Shown here: in pieces, positions 26,722-64,000 of the stretch
Numbering within the stretch: position 1 is the first letter of the stretch
Layout: each line of letters opens with the position of its first letter
Origin: Craterostigma plantagineum
Taxonomy: Eukaryota; Streptophyta; Magnoliopsida; Lamiales; Linderniaceae
Reading direction: 5' to 3'
Assembly: GCA_027422505.1 (NCBI GenBank)
Contig: JAPQWV010000001.1
Span: 7,812,001-7,876,000 of the forward strand
Length of the DNA: 64,000 nucleotides
Notes under the pieces: generated by a model
The model's database searches: none
What the model was told of the DNA's origin: nothing
The model's input: only the letters and a program-made list of their open reading frames with translations
Made by a program: the position numbers and the translations under genes

Positions 26722-26726
26722 ATCTG

Positions 26727-27155
26727 TGAAACAGCCCGCTTTCGGGGCCTGTCGGGTTGGGCCCACTACACTTCATTGGTTGTCTGACCCCACTGTATCA
26801 CTACTAGCCTTCCAGCGTGCTTTGCACTGCACGCACCCTGAGCTACTTTCCAGGGGGTCACCCATCCCAGTGCTACTCCATGTCAAGCACGCTTAATTTT
26901 GAAGTTCTTATGGATTGACTCACAGAAAGGAAGGTGCACCTTTGGTGATATGAGTAGCTCAATCAATTCTCTTATACCATTCCTTAACTTGACAAGTCCA
27001 TACATTGTCAATCTCAGGATCCCTTTCATTCGGGTGTGGAATCGGTTCATTCATGTATCCCTCCGCCTAGAAGCCTCGCCAGGAGCCGCTCCTTATCCGT
27101 GCCTCTCTCTGGCACCGACGATCACTCCCCGCCCTCATCGGTCCCGGGTGTTACA
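26727..27155 (-). repeat. 3' LTR with 5S rRNA-like segment
   Basis: 429 bp. The 5S-derived part is 26832-26920; on the minus strand it reads as 5S rRNA with the AAGCGTGCTTG (A-box) and GGGTGACCCCCTGG (C-box) regions recognisable but mutated (for example AAAATTAAGC for GAAGTTAAGC). Confidence 0.9.
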
Positions 27156-27211
27156 TGCCCACCAGCCTCTACCTGGTTCGTCCACGAACCACACCGTACT
27201 GTGAGAGATTG

Positions 27212-27224
27212 TGCTCTGATACCA
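27212..27224 (-). other. Second, internal primer-binding-site-like sequence
   Basis: Minus-strand TGGTATCAGAGCA, like a tRNA-iMet PBS, but located next to the 3' LTR rather than the 5' LTR. It starts the ~70 bp block shared with the internal domains of the TRIM array at 63310-63381. Confidence 0.75.
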
Positions 27225-27241
27225 TCTAAAGCATTAAGTGT

Positions 27242-27880
27242 TGGGATTTGGTCCGGGTCTGATACATGTTCCAAAGTGGTAGCGTCAGCATTGCTGACAT
27301 AGGGGCGTTGGATTTGAGGGTCTATTCGGAACATTAGTGGGTCCCTGGTTACTTGGACATTTGCCAATGAACTGACGTTTACGTTCACCTCCTCCTCCTT
27401 GTTGACTCTCTCTCCTTATTTTCACTTCCTGGGCCTCGACTATCTGAGCCTCTGCTTGCTCGACAATCATCGTCCGATCCGCAACTTGGGTAAATTCCAT
27501 TGGTCGGGCTCCCGCAATGCTCATATCTCGATAAATTTCAGGTTTGAGACCCGTAATGAACCTCATCACCTTTAGGAAATTGGTTGCCACCATATGAGGG
27601 GCAAAACGAGATAATTCTTCGAATGTGCGGATGTATTGGGCGACTGACATTCCTCCTTGTTTCAAGTTCATAAATTCTTGCATTCTTCGCTCATGTTCGT
27701 GGGCAGTGAAATATTTTCGTGGAATGTTCTCTGAATCGCTCCCATGACATTGTCACCGGGTCCTCCAAAACCTTCACTGTGTCCCACCAGAATCTGGTGC
27801 TTCCCCTAAGCATGGAAACCGCGGAAAGGACTTTCTCGTCTTCTAGTACACGGCTATAAATAAACATGTATTCGATCGTG
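27242..27880 (-). pseudogene. Ty3/Gypsy gag fragment (C-terminal part)
   Basis: Minus-strand reading shows a Retrotrans_gag domain with SAVSMLRGSTRFWWDTVK, WERFREH, GGMSVAQYIRTFEELSRFAP and FITGLKPEI. It ends in a CxxCxxxHxxxC zinc knuckle at 27264-27299 in which a TGA (27285-27287) replaces a residue. A frameshift separates the two halves near 27690-27715. The 5' part of the gene continues at 32133, beyond the inserted solo LTR. The normal protein would be a particle structural protein. It is non-functional here. Confidence 0.85.
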
Positions 27881-30517
27881 TGTGGCGCCCCGCCATCTAC
27901 CACTCTTTTTCTTACACTAATTCACGTGACTAATGCAACAATAAAATATATTACAAACTTATTTTACAAAAGCACAGCATAATAAAATGTAGCACCCGCC
28001 ACACAGGTCGCATCCATGTACACACCATCCTCAAAAGTCGCTAGAAGTTCCAAATGTTTCAGCCTCGCCATCTAAGCGTTCACATACCATGTTCGCTCGC
28101 ATCTACAACATATAAAACATGGGATGAGCTATAAAGCTCAGTAAGTGGAAATATGCATGATATGCACGTGCCAAACTCGCAAAGGCATCCGCGCCAATGC
28201 TTTCTAATTCCCATAATAACATCGTTCTTATTTCACTAAGGGCCCTCGGCTAGCTAATCTTACTATGCACCATACAGGAGCTCAGATACAATATGGATAA
28301 ATATGACAGCGACCCATGTTGGGTGGCCTACACCAGGTTTCTCTAGGTCGCCCCGTCCCAGGTCGTCCCCTCTGCCATGCGGTTGCTCACGTTGGTAGCC
28401 TACTCCGAGGTAGCCTACATCAGGGTTACCCCCTGTGTCACTTTTTCCTCAGGTCGTACCGTCCAGGTAGCATCTTACTGCAAACAGGGCATTCATTCGC
28501 CCGAATTCATACACATACATGCCTTACCGCATACAGAGCATTCATTTGCCCAAACACATATACATACATATATCCGACGATGCACCTCACTGTCATGGCA
28601 CCATAGAAGTAGCACTGACTCAACTGTGAGTCGACATCAGATGCCTATATCGGCAAATATCATTTGCTCTCAGGCGATAAATACCGTGCACGCTCACACC
28701 TAGAAATCCCCCAAATGAAACGTGTGTGCATATGATTATGCCATGCGAATAATAAAATAAATTGCTTTACTAACCATGCAGTGGTACGTTGCAAATAATT
28801 CACAGCACGTAAAATCACTGAAGCAGATAATCACATAAATTAAACGCACACAAGTAATTTATGTGTTGTAGTTGAGGTTCCCACTTAGCTGGTATCCTTA
28901 GTTACTTAGCTTAACGTAAGTCGCCCAACCCTCGAACCTTAAATGTAGAAACGTTATAAGGTTAGAATATGTTGGTTTAATTATATAATTAGGGTTTTTC
29001 AAAAGTTGTTTTGAACTTGGACTAATTTCGAAATTATCAGAGTTTGAGAACCCTAGTTTCGATTTTCATGAATTTCAAAATCCCTAATTTCGAAAGTTGT
29101 AATTTCGAAAATCCTTATTAGTTATAAAAATATTTCGAAAATGATGTATTTCGAAACTTAATTTCGAAACCTTGGTAGGTTTCGAAATTCTAGCTTCGAA
29201 ATTCTCCTTGGGCTCTAAATTAATTTTAAGCCCTTAAAACCCCTAAATTAGAAATTAGCCCCTAAATGAGAAATTCGAAACTCATCTTCGAAATGAGTTT
29301 CGAAATTCTCCAAACTCATTTTGAAATTGTGTTTCGAACTTTATTTCGAATTTCTCATGTGCCAAAAACAACTTAAATTTTAAAATTCTCAAGTGCTAAC
29401 ACAACCCCAATTTCGAAATTCTCTTAATTCAACACCAATCTTTCGAAAATCATACTTATAAGAACCTAGCTTTCGAAACCATATAAAAACACTATTTGAG
29501 TTTCAAACTTGTTAAGACTTTCGATCAAAACATGATTTATCAAGAACAAGATGAATATCATATGAATTCTAAACGATGTTCATCCTTTTCAAAAATCAAA
29601 AACCCTAAAGAACATGAGCTTATGTGATTTCGATGCTTAATAACTCTTAGACAAGCCCAACCCTAACTAGAAAAAATAAAAATTATAGCAAGAACCCTTA
29701 CCAAATCCAAGCTGCGTTATGGTTACTATTTGAGTTCTTCGCCTCCTTTCTAACCTTGTTCTTTGAAGATTTCGCCTAATGACTCCTTTCTTTCTATGTT
29801 CTCATCATAAAGCTTTCAATTATTGTTATTACTTTAGCTTTAGGTTGCTTTCTAACTTGACTTTAGGTTTCAAATGTTTGTACTCATCCTCCCATACTTA
29901 TCGTGTACTAGCTAGTTTCTAAAGAATCATGACACTAACCTAATACAATCACACGCCAAATGTTAATATTTTAAGCCTTGTATTAGTCATTCTTTAGTTC
30001 CTAAGAATTTAGAAATCCCTTATTAGGGAATTTCAAAACACTTGAAGGAAATTTCAAAGGATAGTTCGAAATTCCTCTTGTTTCGAACTTCACCACCAAT
30101 TTCGAAATTCTATTACTTGAGTTTCGAATTTCCCTTATTTTAACATTTCTTTGGTGTTAACCCTGTATAAGAGAATTTCAAAATCAACTTGGGGAATTTC
30201 GAAATCCCTCATAAGAAATTTCGAACACTATTTCAAACTTCTACTAGGTTCCGAACTTCTCCCATAAGAATTTCGAAATGCAACACCTAGGTTTCGGATT
30301 TCTCCTTAGTAAGCTAGTTTCGAACTTTTCTTGGCTACTTGTTTCGAATTTCTTCTCCCACATTAAAGAAATTTCGAAACTACCCATAATTTCCAAAATT
30401 ACACCTAAGTTTCGAAATTCTCCCATGGGGCTCCTCCCAAATTTCGAAATGAACCACTTCCCTTAGGTATCAAACTTCTTACTACTGTATTTCGAAATTC
30501 ACTACCTATTATATATT

Positions 30518-31768
30518 GGCTTAATTATTTTTTTGATCCCGTAATTTAGGGGGTGTGGCGTTATAGGGACACATAATTTAGGTGGTTGGATTATAGGGAC
30601 ACTAACTTTCGAGAAAATGGCAATTTAGATACAATATACGATTCGACCCTGTATTTTGACTCAAATCCGCTGACGTGGAACCCGACCCGCTGACATGTTT
30701 GCTTATTCAATACACAAGTTAGCGACGGAATTTTGGGCGGTAATGCCGTCGCTAAAGGTGGGGAAAATAAAAAATATAGATCCGTTGGTATTGTGCGACG
30801 GAGGTGCCGTCGCTAAATCACTGTCACAAACCTAAAACTCGCGAATATCCGTCGCAAACTTGCACGGAACCTTGCGTCGGAATTTCCGTTGCTAAAGGAG
30901 GCGTTCGTCTGCGTCGGGACTTCAATTTATCCTACGCTTTCGCCAAAAAAACGCCCATCGACGTCGCTTGGTTTTCGTTTAAAAATCATGCAAGTCTTTT
31001 AATTTTCCTCTAATCAGATCGAAACAGTTTCTGGGTTTTCATTTTTGCCTCGTTAAATCAAATCCTCTGTGACTATAAACCCTAATTTCAGGAGTAATAG
31101 TTCGAAAGGTGGGATGGAGAAGTTGGCCGGCGCAATAGAGAGCTTCGCAAAAGCATATACGAATATTGAGACTTTGAAGATTCAGCATACGGTGGAGTTG
31201 GAGACACAGAGGATGAAGTTTGACATGGAATTAAAAGCTATGAAGATGAAGAGTTTCGCTGAAACTGTTCTTCAGTTGCAGAAGATTAAGAAGCAGAAGA
31301 AAAAGCCCGGCGATGAAGATGACAGTGATGACGTCGCCGGCGAACTGTTGAGATGGTGGTGGTTGTTTGGCGATGGAATTTGAAGAGCGAACAGAAGCTG
31401 ATCCGGCGTTCAGATCTAAGAAAAATGTCCGATGCTTTTTATTTTTTTTTCTATTTCTCAAATATATTTTAATATATGTTTTTTATTTTAATTTTTGATA
31501 TTTTTTTCTCTTTATTTATTTCAATGATGTGGCGCCACCTCAGCAGTTTTTATAACGTGGTGCCATGTCGGATTTCTTACAATCGCATGTCAGCGGGTCG
31601 ACTGCCACGTCAGCGGGTTTGGGTTATAATATCGGGTCGGGACGTATATTGTCCTAAAAATGCTTATTACTTTTTGAAAGTTAATGTCCCTATAATGCCA
31701 CCACCTAAATTATGTGTCCCTATAACGCCACGTCCCCTAAATTACAATATCAAAAAAATAATTAAGCC
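30518..31768. mobile_element. Pack-MULE (9-bp TSD, ~95-bp TIRs)
   Basis: Long terminal inverted repeats (30518-~30612 and ~31675-31768) start GGCTTAATTATTTTTTTGAT. A perfect 9-bp duplication TTATATATT (30509-30517, 31769-31777) marks Mutator. There is no transposase. The interior carries an exon-like fragment of a trihelix transcription factor (31091-31383), and GCGACGG/CCGTCGC motifs at about 30722-30890 that resemble CACTA subterminal repeats. Confidence 0.93.
31091..31383 (+). pseudogene. Captured fragment of a trihelix transcription factor (C-terminal helix)
   Basis: Follows an acceptor-like ATTTCAG at 31084-31090 and reads SNSSKGGMEKLAGAIESF, then a long helix with TVELETQRMKFDMELKAMKMK and LQLQKIKKQKKK. 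This matches the C-terminal coiled helix of plant trihelix (6b-interacting/ASIL-like) factors, where 'L..AI..F...Y...E..K' and 'ELE.QRM.F...LE.QRMQ' are typical. The DNA-binding N-terminus is absent. Presence of an intron-exon border shows capture at DNA level. The reading frame is open to a TGA at 31381. Confidence 0.7.
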
Positions 31769-32132
31769 TTATATATTACTAATTTTCGAAATTATCAACA
31801 AGAAACCCTAGTTTCGAAATTTGTAGGGTTTCGAATTTCTCTTCCACCTAACAGCCTAATTTCAAAACCTACTTATTCAAAACTATCTCTCTCTCATTCT
31901 AACTTCACTTATTTCGAAAAATTACACTTTCGAATTTCTTAAGTCCCTTTCGAAATTCTGACTTTCTTACCCTTATACCTATCTAGTTTCTCCTAAGTCA
32001 TAATATTTTCTAATAAAGCAACTTATTCACATAAACACATATTCATATAGCCACATAACTTGCATATCATATTAACACTTATTATGCATGTAGATTTATT
32101 GGCCAGCTTACTAGCGGGACTCGGGTATTACA

Positions 32133-32480
32133 TCGTGCGTAGCCAGTCTTCTGCCACTATGGGGTCAGTGGCATTTGCGAAAGGTTGGGGATCCATCTTC
32201 CGAAAGCGTTTCCCAATGATTTCTATGCGTTCGGGTTGTGGGGAGGGGCGGTGTGCATACCAGACGAGCTGCGATGATGTATCAGCTCGTTGATCTGATC
32301 CGACTGACGTTGGATCAGGTCAGTAAGTCGAATAATGGTGGAGTCCTTTTCATTAGTAGGGGACTCTGGTTCAGCCCTACGGCTGGAATCGCCTACGTAT
32401 TCTCTCCTTCCTCTTGGCTTTTTCTTCTATTATCTACAATCGTTCATACAAGAAAACATATTTCAAATAACATGTAATCA
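32133..32480 (-). pseudogene. Ty3/Gypsy gag fragment (N-terminal part)
   Basis: Minus-strand reading gives LIQRQSDQINELIHH and, in another frame, IIGKRFRKMDPQPFANATDPIVAEDWLR, the usual start of a plant Gypsy gag (F.k..P..F.G..DP..A..WL). One frameshift separates the two pieces. The gene is continued at 27880 after the solo LTR. Confidence 0.75.
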
Positions 32481-32566
32481 CATCAAATCTTAAAACTTAC
32501 AGGCTAGGCTGGTTCTCCAGGCTTTTGAGCGGCATTATATGGACTGTCTTCAGAATCTTTAACCTA

Positions 32567-32579
32567 CCCTCTGATACCA
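32567..32579 (-). other. Primer binding site of the 5S-LTR element
   Basis: Minus-strand TGGTATCAGAGGG, matching the tRNA-iMet 3' end for its first 11 bases. It lies four bases inside the 5' LTR (starts 32584). Confidence 0.85.
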
Positions 32580-32583
32580 CATG

Positions 32584-33006
32584 TGACAGCCCGCTCTCGA
32601 GACCTGTGGGGTTGGACACACTGCACTTCATTGATTTTCTGGCCCACTGTATCACCAATCCTTCCAGTGTGCTTTGCACTGTACGCACCCTGAGCTACTT
32701 CCCATGGGGTCACCCATCCTAGTGCTACTCCAAGTCAAACACGCTTAACTTTGAAGTTCTTATGGATGGACTCCAGAACAGGAAGGTGCACCTTTGGTGA
32801 TACGAGTAGCGCAATCAATTCTCTTATACCATTCCTTAACTCGACAAGCTCATACATTGTCAGTCTCAGGATCCCTCTCATTCGGGTGTGTAATCGGTTC
32901 CTTCATATATCTCTCCGCCTAGAAGCCTCGCCAAGAGTCTCTTCTTGTCCGTGCCCCTCTCTGGCACCGGCGATCACTTCTCGCCCAATCGGCCCCGGGT
33001 GTTACA
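32584..33006 (-). repeat. 5' LTR with 5S rRNA-like segment
   Basis: 423 bp. 5S-derived part at 32684-32772, read on the minus strand with AAAGTTAAGCGTGTTTGACTTGG and GGATGGGTGACCCCATGGG kept. Same orientation as the element transcript. Confidence 0.9.
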
Positions 33007-33011
33007 ATCTG

Positions 33012-39175: not shown

Positions 39176-39618
39176 TGTTGGGTATAATCTCAAAGCAAAA
39201 TACAAAATATAAAATAAAAGTAGAAAAGAAGACACACACAATAGCAGCCAAGGAAGACCACGAATGAAGAAAAAGAGAAGCCAAATAAGAAACGTTTTCT
39301 ATAGCCGAAAAGAAAGAAATATAAGAAGAGGAAAAGTCAGATATAAGGAGCAATGATATATTCGCATCATAATGTAGCAATAGTTATCTTCTAGGAAGCT
39401 ACGCTAGTATGCTATCTCTATATCTATATATATGTGCATGTGGGAGCGTAAGAATGTGCAGAGTGAGTTGTGCGTGAGTGAGGGGAGAAAAAGAAAAAAG
39501 GCACGTTGCCTTGTGTGTGCATGTAGTACAGAGTGAGATAAAAAAAACTCAGCAAAGAAAAAAAACATTTCGTCCTCCATCATCTTCTCTTCATTCGATA
39601 TTATATTTAAAAACAACA
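39176..39618 (+). repeat. 5' LTR of compact retroelement
   Basis: 443 bp; a TATCTATATATATG stretch near 39420 could be the TATA box of the plus-strand transcript. Nearly identical to 41483-41925. Confidence 0.95.
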
Positions 39619-39620
39619 AA

Positions 39621-41519
39621 ATGGTATCAGAGCCGAATGTGTCAACGGAGCCGACAGAGCCGATGATATCGCCAGAGCCAATGGTGTCAATGGAGTCGAG
39701 GTGGATAGCAGATGTCCACATGTTAGTCCCACAACTCACCGAGAGTAACTACGCAAGGTGGAGCGTAGAAATGAAGGCTTTGCTTGTAGAGCAAGACTTA
39801 TGGAAAATTGTCGAAAACGGAGATACCCCACCCGATACAACGGGGTATACAAGGTTGCAACGGAAGACGTTGCGAGCCGCCGCCATAGAAAACGGTCTCG
39901 CACTCCTCGTCATCTACGAGGCGTTAGAGTTTACCAGTTTCGGAGCGATAGGCGCAACGAAAAAAGCCAAGGAAGCCTGGGATCTGTTGGAGAAAGCGTA
40001 TAAAGACGCCGATTACACCAACCAAGTTCAGCCACAAAAACAGGGCGAACTTGCAACGACGAAGGAGGACGAGAACAACGTTGAGAGCGAACCCGTAGGA
40101 GAAGAGGTAGCTCGTGACGTGGAGAGTAAGCTTGATAAAGATCAAGCTGAGCCGGTGGTGGAAAAGAAAAAAGTCGAACCACCACAAAAACCCGAGATGG
40201 GAAAAGAAGAAGGCGAATCATCAAAGATGAAAGCCGATGGTGATGAAGAGGAGGAAATATATCCAAAGGCCGAGGAGCCCGTGGAAGAAGAAAAGAAAAG
40301 AGAAGCTCCAAAAGAAGAAGAGCTCGAAAAAAAGGAGGCGGTCAAAGAAACGCCGCCACGACAACCTCCTGAGAAAGTCGAGAAAATCGGCATGAGGGCA
40401 TCGGTGAATGCCTGGGAGATGAAGAACGAGGTCGACGACGCCATGCATGCATCGTCGGACGAAGCTAAAGATAAAATTCACGAGGCGAATAAGAAAGCCA
40501 CGGAGAAATACAACACGATAGCCGAGAACGGTGTTGATGCCGGAGAAGAGACGAGAAATAAGCCAACTCCCCAGCATGCTGAAGAAGCCATGCAAAGAGA
40601 GAATCAGGAGCGCGGCGTGAAAGAGACGACCTGCGCAGCCACGACGGAGGCCATGCGACCTGTTGTCGATAAAGTCACGACACAAAAGATTGGAGAACCT
40701 ACGGAGGCCAGTCTTAACGAGAAACAACGCGTTGACGAAGAAAAACTACGCGAGAAAGACAAAGAAGTGAAGGAGTGGATCAAGGCGAGAGACAGCCTTG
40801 AAGCCTACATGAACAACTTGAAAAATCGAAGCAACGAGAAGTACAAGCTTGCCGGAAAATTAGAAGCGGACGAGAAGGACGAAGTCAAGATGACGACCAA
40901 GGAGGCCCTCAAGCGGATCGGCGATAAACAAAATATGAAAAAAGAGACGACTGACATGAAGGAGACCTTCGAGATGCTGACGAAGGCCAAGCCACCGAAG
41001 GCGAAATATCTGGTCGCCATACCGAAGAATCTTGAGTACGACAAAACCCACCGAAAAATCGCGGAAGAGAAGCGTGACGAAGCCGACACTGCCATTTTTA
41101 ACGACGAGGTGACGAGCTTGAAGGACTACGTCACAGAGATGAAAGAAAAATACGAGGATATTTATTTCGCCGAAGAACCGAACCAAAGGGCAAAGATGGT
41201 CCAAGAAGAAGTACTAGTGGTAGACTCTGGGTGCTGCTTAGTGACAGACGAGTACGACCAAAGGAAGGTGTCAGACGAACATCGGAAAGGTGCTAGATCT
41301 AAGGAAGAACGGGTTCACAGAAATGCCTGGTTTGAAAAGCACATTCTGAGCATTGAAGCAAAATGTGCTCGAAGATGTTTGTTGACGGCAAGTGGCGAGC
41401 CGCAACATACGACAGGCGAAAGCGGGTCAAATTTAAAGAGCGGTGAAAGACAAAAAAATGCTTTGAGATTAAGGGGGAAATTTGTTGGGTATAATCTCAA
41501 AGCAAAATACAAAATATAA
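39621..41519 (+). CDS. Chimeric ORF: Copia Gag-like N-terminus plus charged region with BiP/Hsp70-lid-like segment
   Basis: 632 codons, uninterrupted. The ATG overlaps the PBS (MVSEP is encoded by ATGGTATCAGAGCC) and the frame runs through the polypurine tract 37 bp into the 3' LTR. Residues 33-133 resemble a Copia gag N-terminus (DUF4219/UBN2: LTESNYARWSVEMKALLVEQDLW, KEAWDLLEKAY). Residues ~140-370 are Glu/Lys-rich and likely disordered or coiled-coil. Residues ~373-450 (KEVKEWIKARDSLEAYMNNL, KLAGKLEADEKDEVK, TKEALKRIGDKQN) resemble the C-terminal helical lid of the ER Hsp70 BiP. No zinc knuckle. A DSGCC at 535-539 may be a worn protease motif. No signal peptide or KDEL-type end. Function unknown. 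Confidence 0.8.
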   Translation: MVSEPNVSTEPTEPMISPEPMVSMESRWIADVHMLVPQLTESNYARWSVEMKALLVEQDLWKIVENGDTPPDTTGYTRLQRKTLRAAAIENGLALLVIYEALEFTSFGAIGATKKAKEAWDLLEKAYKDADYTNQVQPQKQGELATTKEDENNVESEPVGEEVARDVESKLDKDQAEPVVEKKKVEPPQKPEMGKEEGESSKMKADGDEEEEIYPKAEEPVEEEKKREAPKEEELEKKEAVKETPPRQPPEKVEKIGMRASVNAWEMKNEVDDAMHASSDEAKDKIHEANKKATEKYNTIAENGVDAGEETRNKPTPQHAEEAMQRENQERGVKETTCAATTEAMRPVVDKVTTQKIGEPTEASLNEKQRVDEEKLREKDKEVKEWIKARDSLEAYMNNLKNRSNEKYKLAGKLEADEKDEVKMTTKEALKRIGDKQNMKKETTDMKETFEMLTKAKPPKAKYLVAIPKNLEYDKTHRKIAEEKRDEADTAIFNDEVTSLKDYVTEMKEKYEDIYFAEEPNQRAKMVQEEVLVVDSGCCLVTDEYDQRKVSDEHRKGARSKEERVHRNAWFEKHILSIEAKCARRCLLTASGEPQHTTGESGSNLKSGERQKNALRLRGKFVGYNLKAKYKI

Positions 41520-62844: not shown

Positions 62845-64000
62845 TGTAACGACCCGTTCCATACCGGGTGTCACTATAGCATCGGTCCCTATCGGGACCA
62901 GTGGGGTTGGGCCCACCACACTCCGACTGATAGTCTGGCCCCACTGTACCACCATTTAACCTTTTAGCGTGCTTCGTGCACTCGCTCACACGCACCCTGA
63001 GAAACTTCCCAGGGGGTCACCCATCCTTAGATTGCCCCAAGTCAAGCACGCTTAACTTCGGAGTTTCTATAGATGGACTCCCGAAAAGGTAGGTCGACCT
63101 TGGTGATATGAGTAGTACTATCAATCCTTTTATACGATTCTTAGCCTGACACGCCCATACATTGTCAGTCTCAGGATCCCCTCTCATTCTGCTGTTCGAT
63201 CGGTTCGTTCATGTACCCCTTCGCCTAGAAGCCTGCCAGAAGCCGCTCATTGTCCGTGCACCCTGGCACCGACGATCACTCCCCGCCCTGTTCGGCCCCG
63301 GGCGTCACATGCCCACCAGCTTCCGCCTGGTTCGTCCCCGAACCAGCACCGTACTGCGAGAGGTTGTTTTCTGATACCACCTGTAACAACCCGTCCCATA
63401 CCGGGTGTCACTATAGCTTCGGTCCCTACCGGGACTAGTGGGGTTGGGCCCACCACACTTCGACTGATAGTCTAGCCCCACTGTACCACCATTTAACCTT
63501 TTAACGTGCTTCGTGCACTCGCTCACACGCACCCTGAGAAACTTCCCAGGGGGTCACCCATCCTTAGATTGCCCCAAGTCAAGCACGCTTAACTTCGGAG
63601 TTTCTATAGATGGACTCCCGAAAAGGTAGGTCGACCTTGGTGATATGAGTAGTACTATCAATTCTTTTATACGATTCTTAGCCTGACACGCCCATACATT
63701 GTCAGTCTCAGGATCCCCTCTCATTCTGGTGTTGGATCGGTTCGTTCATGTACCCCTTCGCCTAGAAGCCTGCCAGGAGTAGCTCATTGTCCGTGCACCC
63801 TGGCACCGGCGATCACTCCCCGCCCTCTTCGGCCCCGGGCGTCACATGCCCACCAGCTTCCGCCTGGTTCGTCCCCGAACTAGCACCGTACTGCGAGAGG
63901 TTGTGCTCTGATATCACCTGTAACGACCCGTTCCATACCGGGTGTCACTATAGCATCGGTCCCTATCGGGACCAGTGGGGTTGGGCCCACCACACTCCGA
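62845..64000 (-). mobile_element. Tandem array of 5S-bearing TRIM (Cassandra-like), runs off window
   Basis: LTR 62845-63309, internal 63310-63381, LTR 63382-63846, internal 63847-63918, LTR 63919-64000+ . The LTRs (465 bp) start TGTAAC(A/G)ACCCGT and end GGGCGTCACA on the plus strand. Each internal domain is only 72 bp and has, on the minus strand, a PBS (TGGTATCAGA at 63370-63379; TGATATCAGAGCACA in the second) and ends in a purine-rich tract beside the LTR. The 5S rRNA-like segment is at 62991-63080 and 63528-63617. No coding capacity. 5S in the LTR is the hallmark of Cassandra TRIMs, though 465 bp is longer than the LTRs I know for that family. Confidence 0.88.
62991..63080 (-). repeat. 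5S rRNA-derived segment in TRIM LTR
   Basis: On the minus strand it contains CTCCGAAGTTAAGCGTGCTTG and GGATGGGTGACCCCCTGGGA, almost identical to the internal promoter (A-box to C-box) of plant 5S rRNA; the middle part differs. The 5' third of 5S is not preserved, so it is not a functional 5S gene. Confidence 0.9.

Follow-up and report, generated by a model that had tools for sequence, protein, structure and literature searches.

The window analysed here is a 64-kb stretch of the Craterostigma plantagineum genome (contig JAPQWV010000001.1, positions 7,812,001 to 7,876,000), and all positions are given in its numbering. At 26727-33006, on the minus strand, it contains a long terminal repeat (LTR) element with a 5-bp target-site duplication (TSD). 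The LTRs bear 5S rRNA-like segments and are those of Cassandra, a terminal-repeat retrotransposon in miniature (TRIM); between them lies a gag remnant homologous to the chromovirus gag of the same genome. We call this element the chimera. It is read on the minus strand, hence the right-hand LTR is its 5' LTR (table 1).

In element order the interior consists of a first primer binding site (PBS1), a 5' region with an N-terminal gag remnant, a nested insertion, the remaining gag, and a second primer binding site (PBS2) with the Cassandra interior. The initial annotation had proposed paired 5S-bearing LTRs sharing the TSD ATCTG, and this description holds. The two LTRs are 88.5% identical over 426 columns (50 of 425 sites differ; Kimura two-parameter (K2P) distance 0.130), ATCTG is present on both sides, and over 69 bp the 5S-like segments are 81% (3' LTR, E 8e-14) and 83% (5' LTR, E 2e-15) identical to a 5S gene found in this genome. 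Boxes A and C were recognised by the patterns given in an excerpt of PMC7215508. On the other side, the LTRs contain only ~70 of the 120 nt of 5S; because 5S is present only in part, the Rfam scan of the window gave nothing at gathering score. A PBS and a gag inside, with a second PBS opening a ~70-bp TRIM interior, had also been proposed and are likewise present. The block opened by PBS2 matches the interior of the window TRIM at 86% over 73 bp, and a tRNA-Met type PBS, TGGTATCAGAGC, stands beside the 5' LTR too, though there it ends in GG, not GC.

The gag is recognised in the open reading frame (ORF) at 27285-27752 (Pfam: Retrotrans_gag, E 3.5e-10; Ty3_capsid, E 4.7e-7). The best Pfam value for the ORF at 27691-27921 was just 0.12, and the two 5' ORFs of the chimera gave no Pfam match. 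In the ORF pieces tested between the LTRs gag is the sole domain recognised; pol was not recognised, and integrase and chromodomain are absent. The gag frames of the window copy are broken and the coding part is cut off inside the second zinc knuckle, which rules out a working gene in this copy.

Table 1. Features of the chimera and of the Cassandra TRIM array (window positions; strand where one applies).
Feature	Position	Strand	Basis or remark
TSD ATCTG, right copy	33007-33011		read beside 5' LTR
5' LTR, Cassandra type	32582-33006	-	LTR comparison
5S-like segment, 5' LTR	32697-32765	-	boxes A and C exact
PBS1 (TGGTATCAGAGG)	32568-32579	-	start of homology to chromovirus loci
Chromovirus 5' region, then remnant of N-terminal gag coding sequence with broken frame	32133-32567	-	homology to chromovirus loci
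Nested TG...CA (LTR-type) insertion in gag, later, outside the chimera proper	27881-32132	-	own 5-bp TSD
DNA-transposon-like stretch in nested insertion	30507-31778		~190-bp inverted ends, 82% identical
Remaining gag (Retrotrans_gag), frame-broken, stops in second zinc knuckle	27225-27880	-	Pfam and homology
Junction TG, common to chromovirus gag and Cassandra PBS	27223-27224	-	alignment
PBS2 (TGGTATCAGAGC), Cassandra primer binding site	27213-27224	-	opens Cassandra interior block
Cassandra interior block including PBS2	27156-27224	-	like TRIM interiors at 62.8 kb
3' LTR, Cassandra type	26727-27155	-	LTR comparison
5S-like segment, 3' LTR	26845-26913	-	box C exact, box A off by one base
TSD ATCTG, left copy	26722-26726		read beside 3' LTR
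Cassandra TRIM array, three LTRs and two interiors, TSD CATTC	62845-64000, extends ~380 bp beyond window (L057)	-	LTR comparison

Five copies of one insertion

Does the chimera belong to a family of gag-bearing Cassandras? In the genome searches scored candidates alone could be judged, so further chimeras may exist. With the second gag piece as query, five of the 40 candidates scored (from 2686) match at 94-100% over its full length, the others at 74-79%. Among scored candidates, these five full-length matches to the gag piece lie on contigs C1, C28, C2228, C17 and C1164. The nested insertion sits at the identical place in all five. The alignment continues through the 3' flank in all but C2228, where it stops inside the LTR. 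C1, C2228 and C1164 also yielded a readable 5' half, and that of C28 was located; a deletion has removed it from C17, where the 5' flank remains.

A tree of the LTRs of short and long forms, as the initial annotation had suggested, separates the 5' and 3' LTRs of the copies from each other and from the TRIM LTRs. The 5' LTRs of the three copies read cluster with a support of 0.988; a split with a support of 0.973 sets the four 3' LTRs in the tree apart from the 5' LTRs and the TRIM LTRs. K2P distances are 0.13-0.17 between 5' and 3' LTRs of the copies, 0.024-0.072 inside each group, and 0.24-0.28 between the LTRs of the chimera and the Cassandra LTRs of the window. Grouping and distances together place the insertion first and the duplication afterwards. 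From the common flanks, the common nested insertion and the grouping of the LTRs we conclude that the five copies found are one insertion, duplicated afterwards. The same observations (flanks where both were read) rule out a gag-bearing Cassandra family; nor do copies that share their flanks represent a multicopy family moved by retrotransposition. The genome search that had been recommended yielded five gag-bearing copies; all of them are one insertion, which has no pol.

In the gag piece the five versions of the locus differ by ~2-6%, a pattern like that of a polyploid or of unmerged haplotypes. On C28 the halves of the chimera lie at 7846 kb and 7880 kb, in the same orientation and ~34 kb apart, being either split by a large insertion or rearranged in the assembly.

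The chromovirus donor and the two junctions

If the gag is not that of a Cassandra family, where does it come from? Of the 35 other, non-chimera matches of the second gag piece, 25 were taken as loci (L014-L038), none of which carries a Cassandra LTR at E 1e-5 within the ~1.5 kb fetched on either side. Twelve 10-kb stretches were taken around such loci. Five of these (L040, L043, L044, L046 and L050) contain a pair of direct repeats beginning TGTAAT, the second copy being preceded by a polypurine tract (PPT) of the GGGGACGAAATT...GGGG type. The domain scan of translated donor pol covered L043 only; protease, reverse transcriptase (RT), RNase H and integrase were found, with rve itself under its cut-off, and the C-terminus is chromodomain-like (Chromo, 5.3e-4, 20.3 bits against a Pfam cut-off of 25.1). 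NCBIfam returned transposase-like matches only, all under their cut-offs, and was not used. By these domains and this C-terminus the donor group reads as chromovirus-like. It presumably belongs to the Tekay/Del clade, our best guess from LTR length and PPT type.

The separate trees of the two gag pieces both put the chimera beside L020 and L014-L017, with a support of 0.948 for the first piece, and a single donor for both pieces is likely, if not firmly shown. The chromoviruses of the genome (L018-L038) are homologous to the chimera in the PBS, the 5' region and gag as far as the second zinc knuckle. They differ in their long LTRs without 5S, and in L043 pol continues with RT, RNase H, integrase and the chromodomain-like end. 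Donor-type gag also occurs in L042 (C220:815000-824999), without the usual PBS, between ~243-bp direct repeats that are 85% identical; this may be a short element with gag alone. In gag, L014, L015 and L017 look alike, and they too are without the PBS.

Could the chimera nevertheless be what is left of a coding Cassandra, the short TRIMs having arisen from the long form by deletion between its two PBS copies? Both ideas figured in the initial annotation, and rice provides a parallel in OsajLTRA10, the closest published layout to the chimera, in which a duplicated 25-bp stretch with TGGTATCAGAGCC lies at the TRIM breakpoint and which is read, in an excerpt of PMC4717578, as a TRIM parent by internal deletion. 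As described there, OsajLTRA10/OsajRetroS10 resembles the chimera in that LTRs are common to the long form and the TRIM and two copies of a PBS stretch flank the coding part; it differs in being a Ty1-copia element with full coding capacity and several copies, read as a TRIM parent, and in having no 5S. In the present case, however, the five copies are one insertion, the gag is truncated and its frames in the window are broken, and there is no pol between the LTRs. Moreover, gag, 5' region and PBS1 are those of a chromovirus family, whose 25 loci studied lack a Cassandra LTR in the stretches examined. Cassandra is put at ~250 million years in an excerpt of PMC10886601, against a far younger insertion with LTRs 13% apart. 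We consider a coding Cassandra very unlikely, and neither the coding relative nor the descent of the short TRIMs from the long form is upheld. The chimera offers, in turn, an alternative reading for long forms with a duplicated PBS that have been taken as TRIM parents, such as OsajLTRA10.

The parents meet at two junctions. At the inner one, all 25 chromovirus loci match the chimera at 19-24 of the 30 nucleotides (nt) before the break and at 10-17 of the 30 after it; for the window TRIM the corresponding counts are 6 and 26. The break falls inside the second zinc knuckle, between TGCTTTAGATG and GTATCAGAGC, with a TG common to both parents, as read from the sequence with an alignment that took in nine of the 25 loci. 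Across the LTR/PBS junction, agreement with the 25 loci is 8-16 of 30 nt on the LTR side and, past the PBS, 22-26 of 30 in 21 of them; the window TRIM matches at 22 of 30 in the LTR and 12 of 30 past the PBS. A genome search over this junction gave 40 scored candidates (from 2903), four of which span it (C1, C28, C1164 and C2228); the remaining 36 matches begin at query positions 108-121, the LTR ending at 119, and no independent junction of the same kind was among the 40. The 5' junction of the window copy was read in two more copies and matched in a third.

From the switch of homology at both junctions we conclude that the chromovirus segment is bounded at each end by a primer binding site. 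Neither a chromovirus or other Gypsy LTR nor a separate TSD was seen at the borders of the gag segment, which rules out two unrelated nested insertions. In line with the initial annotation, the association of gag with 5S-bearing LTRs is not an accident: no separate Gypsy insertion is marked at the gag, both borders lie at a PBS, and the junction recurs in further copies.

A probable template switch and the expected Pol III transcript

Two parents, an abrupt switch of homology and one TSD-flanked insertion are what the locus presents, as in a template-switch chimera. It is probable, in our judgement, that a single chimeric insertion, since duplicated, joined Cassandra LTRs and interior around the front end of a Ty3/Gypsy chromovirus through one switch of template in minus-strand synthesis, which left Cassandra RNA for chromovirus RNA. 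The uptake of a gag by a TRIM through template switching had been one of the origins first suggested, and it fits both junctions. In canonical reverse transcription, minus-strand synthesis runs as far as the 5' end of the PBS because the repeat and unique 5' regions (R-U5) have been removed. The parts of the chimera and their borders are observed; the steps in the particle, which we infer, would be as follows. Cassandra RNA and chromovirus RNA would have entered one particle. Copying of the Cassandra RNA would have begun at its 3' end, traversed the interior and halted at the PBS, beyond which degradation of R-U5 had left no template. The growing strand would then have jumped, at the 2-nt overlap TG, into the second zinc knuckle of the chromovirus gag, and gag and 5' region would have been copied as far as the chromovirus PBS. 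There plus-strand Cassandra unique 3' region (U3)-R-U5-PBS could have paired with the chromovirus PBS, which is feasible since the PBS is of one kind in the two elements, and Cassandra LTRs would have resulted on both sides. Integrase would have put the product into the genome, creating a 5-bp TSD; afterwards an LTR-type element would have entered the gag and the locus been duplicated. One switch at the Cassandra PBS would thus explain both junctions.

Template switching between plant LTR elements has precedent (excerpts of PMC1950507 and PMC5668417). In those chimeras, too, two co-packaged RNAs are proposed to have been joined in one complementary DNA (cDNA), but they join LTR elements at R regions or within one family, whereas the chimera joins a TRIM of the RNA polymerase III (Pol III) type and a chromovirus at the PBS. 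A two-step route, in which extrachromosomal cDNAs of both elements recombined during or after reverse transcription, would give a product nearly identical in appearance, and the excerpt of PMC5668417 mentions recombination of extrachromosomal DNA, as something rare, for one Onsen copy. It requires more steps and does not by itself account for an inner junction at the PBS, and we hold it to be quite improbable. Quite improbable as well is an origin in DNA, in which a Cassandra received a chromovirus by insertion or recombination and the rest was trimmed by deletion or gene conversion. The locus did later undergo insertion, the arrival of a DNA transposon and, in C17, deletion; yet the gag borders lack a chromovirus LTR or TSD, and chance breakage would not favour two borders at primer binding sites.

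If the chimera arose by a template switch, why has it stayed alone? Sense-strand runs of four T (T4) are absent from its LTRs and interior block, and four occur in its gag. Among five donor-type loci checked, L018, L020, L023 and L032 share the run near 272 of the second gag piece and L031 does not; both runs of the first piece are also in L020, with none there in L018, L023 or L032. A single T4 run lies in the TRIM LTR, ~30 nt upstream of box A, which agrees with the shortness reported for the terminal repeat of Cassandra RNA (Kojima, after Kalendar 2008, in excerpt). A Pol III transcript of the chimera from the 5S promoter would probably stop at the T4 runs in the gag, and this would explain the lack of independent copies among those found. 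The captured chromovirus piece is without pol and ends within gag, and the captured gag was likely a mere passenger.

Several observations weigh against a template switch of this kind or against parts of the argument for it. The mechanism rests on one junction pair, a single event, and the 2-nt overlap is too short as proof of a jump. Past the PBS, four of the 25 donor-type loci (L014-L017) match at 11 of 30 nt, the segment being missing. The nearest donor among the loci examined is at only ~84% in the first gag piece and ~79% in the second, and the placement of the second piece has a support of just 0.439. The T4 run of the TRIM LTR has no counterpart in the chimera LTRs, so that the Pol III argument is incomplete.

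What would the chimera tell us of Cassandra? Formed in reverse transcription, it would record RNAs that were copied together and so name a helper candidate that can be tested. It is likely a physical trace, and a new one, of Cassandra RNA reverse-transcribed together with chromovirus RNA, and the chromovirus group becomes, on this one event, a candidate helper of Cassandra. Tentatively, and with rather more doubt than confidence, we suggest that the Ty3/Gypsy chromovirus group is the working helper: its particles would package the Pol III RNA of Cassandra, its RT and integrase would copy and insert it, the chimera would be the first fossil of the partnership, and a shared PBS and alike LTR ends would mark helper and client. 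The LTR end and PBS of the TRIM read GGGTCGTTACAGGTGATATCAGAGC at 63916 and GGGTTGTTACAGGTGGTATCAGAAAA at 63379, and those of L032 GGGTCGTTACAGGTGGTATCAGAGCG; the others of the 21 PBS-bearing chromovirus loci differ in the final LTR bases. The LTRs start with TGTAACACCCG in the chimera, TGTGACGCCCG in the TRIM and mostly TGTAATACCCG in the chromoviruses. The likeness of the LTR starts is only suggestive because the TGTAATACCCG start occurs in more than one family; the nested insertion begins likewise. The double-PBS signature can serve as a search handle in other plant genomes.

Related elements and other features of the window

As Cassandra TRIMs are described in excerpts of PMC7215508 and PMC10853983, the chimera shares with them 5S-like LTRs with boxes A and C, a tRNA-Met type PBS, a ~70-bp interior beside the 3' LTR and a 5-bp TSD. 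It differs in its chromovirus 5' region and gag; Cassandra TRIMs have no coding sequence inside, and according to the excerpt of PMC10853983 coding-region remains occur in none of the Cassandras of its dataset. One PBS of the TRIM array in the window is mutated to TGATATCAGAGC. In a literature search limited to open-licence papers, titles and the beginnings of abstracts contained no description of a gag between Cassandra LTRs. The TR-GAG elements, reportedly described by Chaparro in 2015, are said to be families having their own gag, with terminal repeats around it and no pol. The chimera likewise has gag between LTRs without pol, but it is one insertion, with a truncated and frame-broken gag and Cassandra LTRs.

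The 'solo LTR' of the initial annotation is the TG...CA insertion in the gag, with the TSD TCGTG (plus strand), and it holds the DNA-transposon-like stretch. Its own TG...CA ends and TSD rule it out as a component of the chimera. The DNA-transposon-like stretch is missing at the same point in C17 and C1164 and partial in C28; it therefore likely arrived later.

Elsewhere in the window, at 39537-41519, a 660-aa open frame begins within an LTR element whose two repeats, 452 bp each, are 99.6% identical. Its start resembles, by eye, a Copia-type gag and is followed by lysine- and glutamate-rich sequence.

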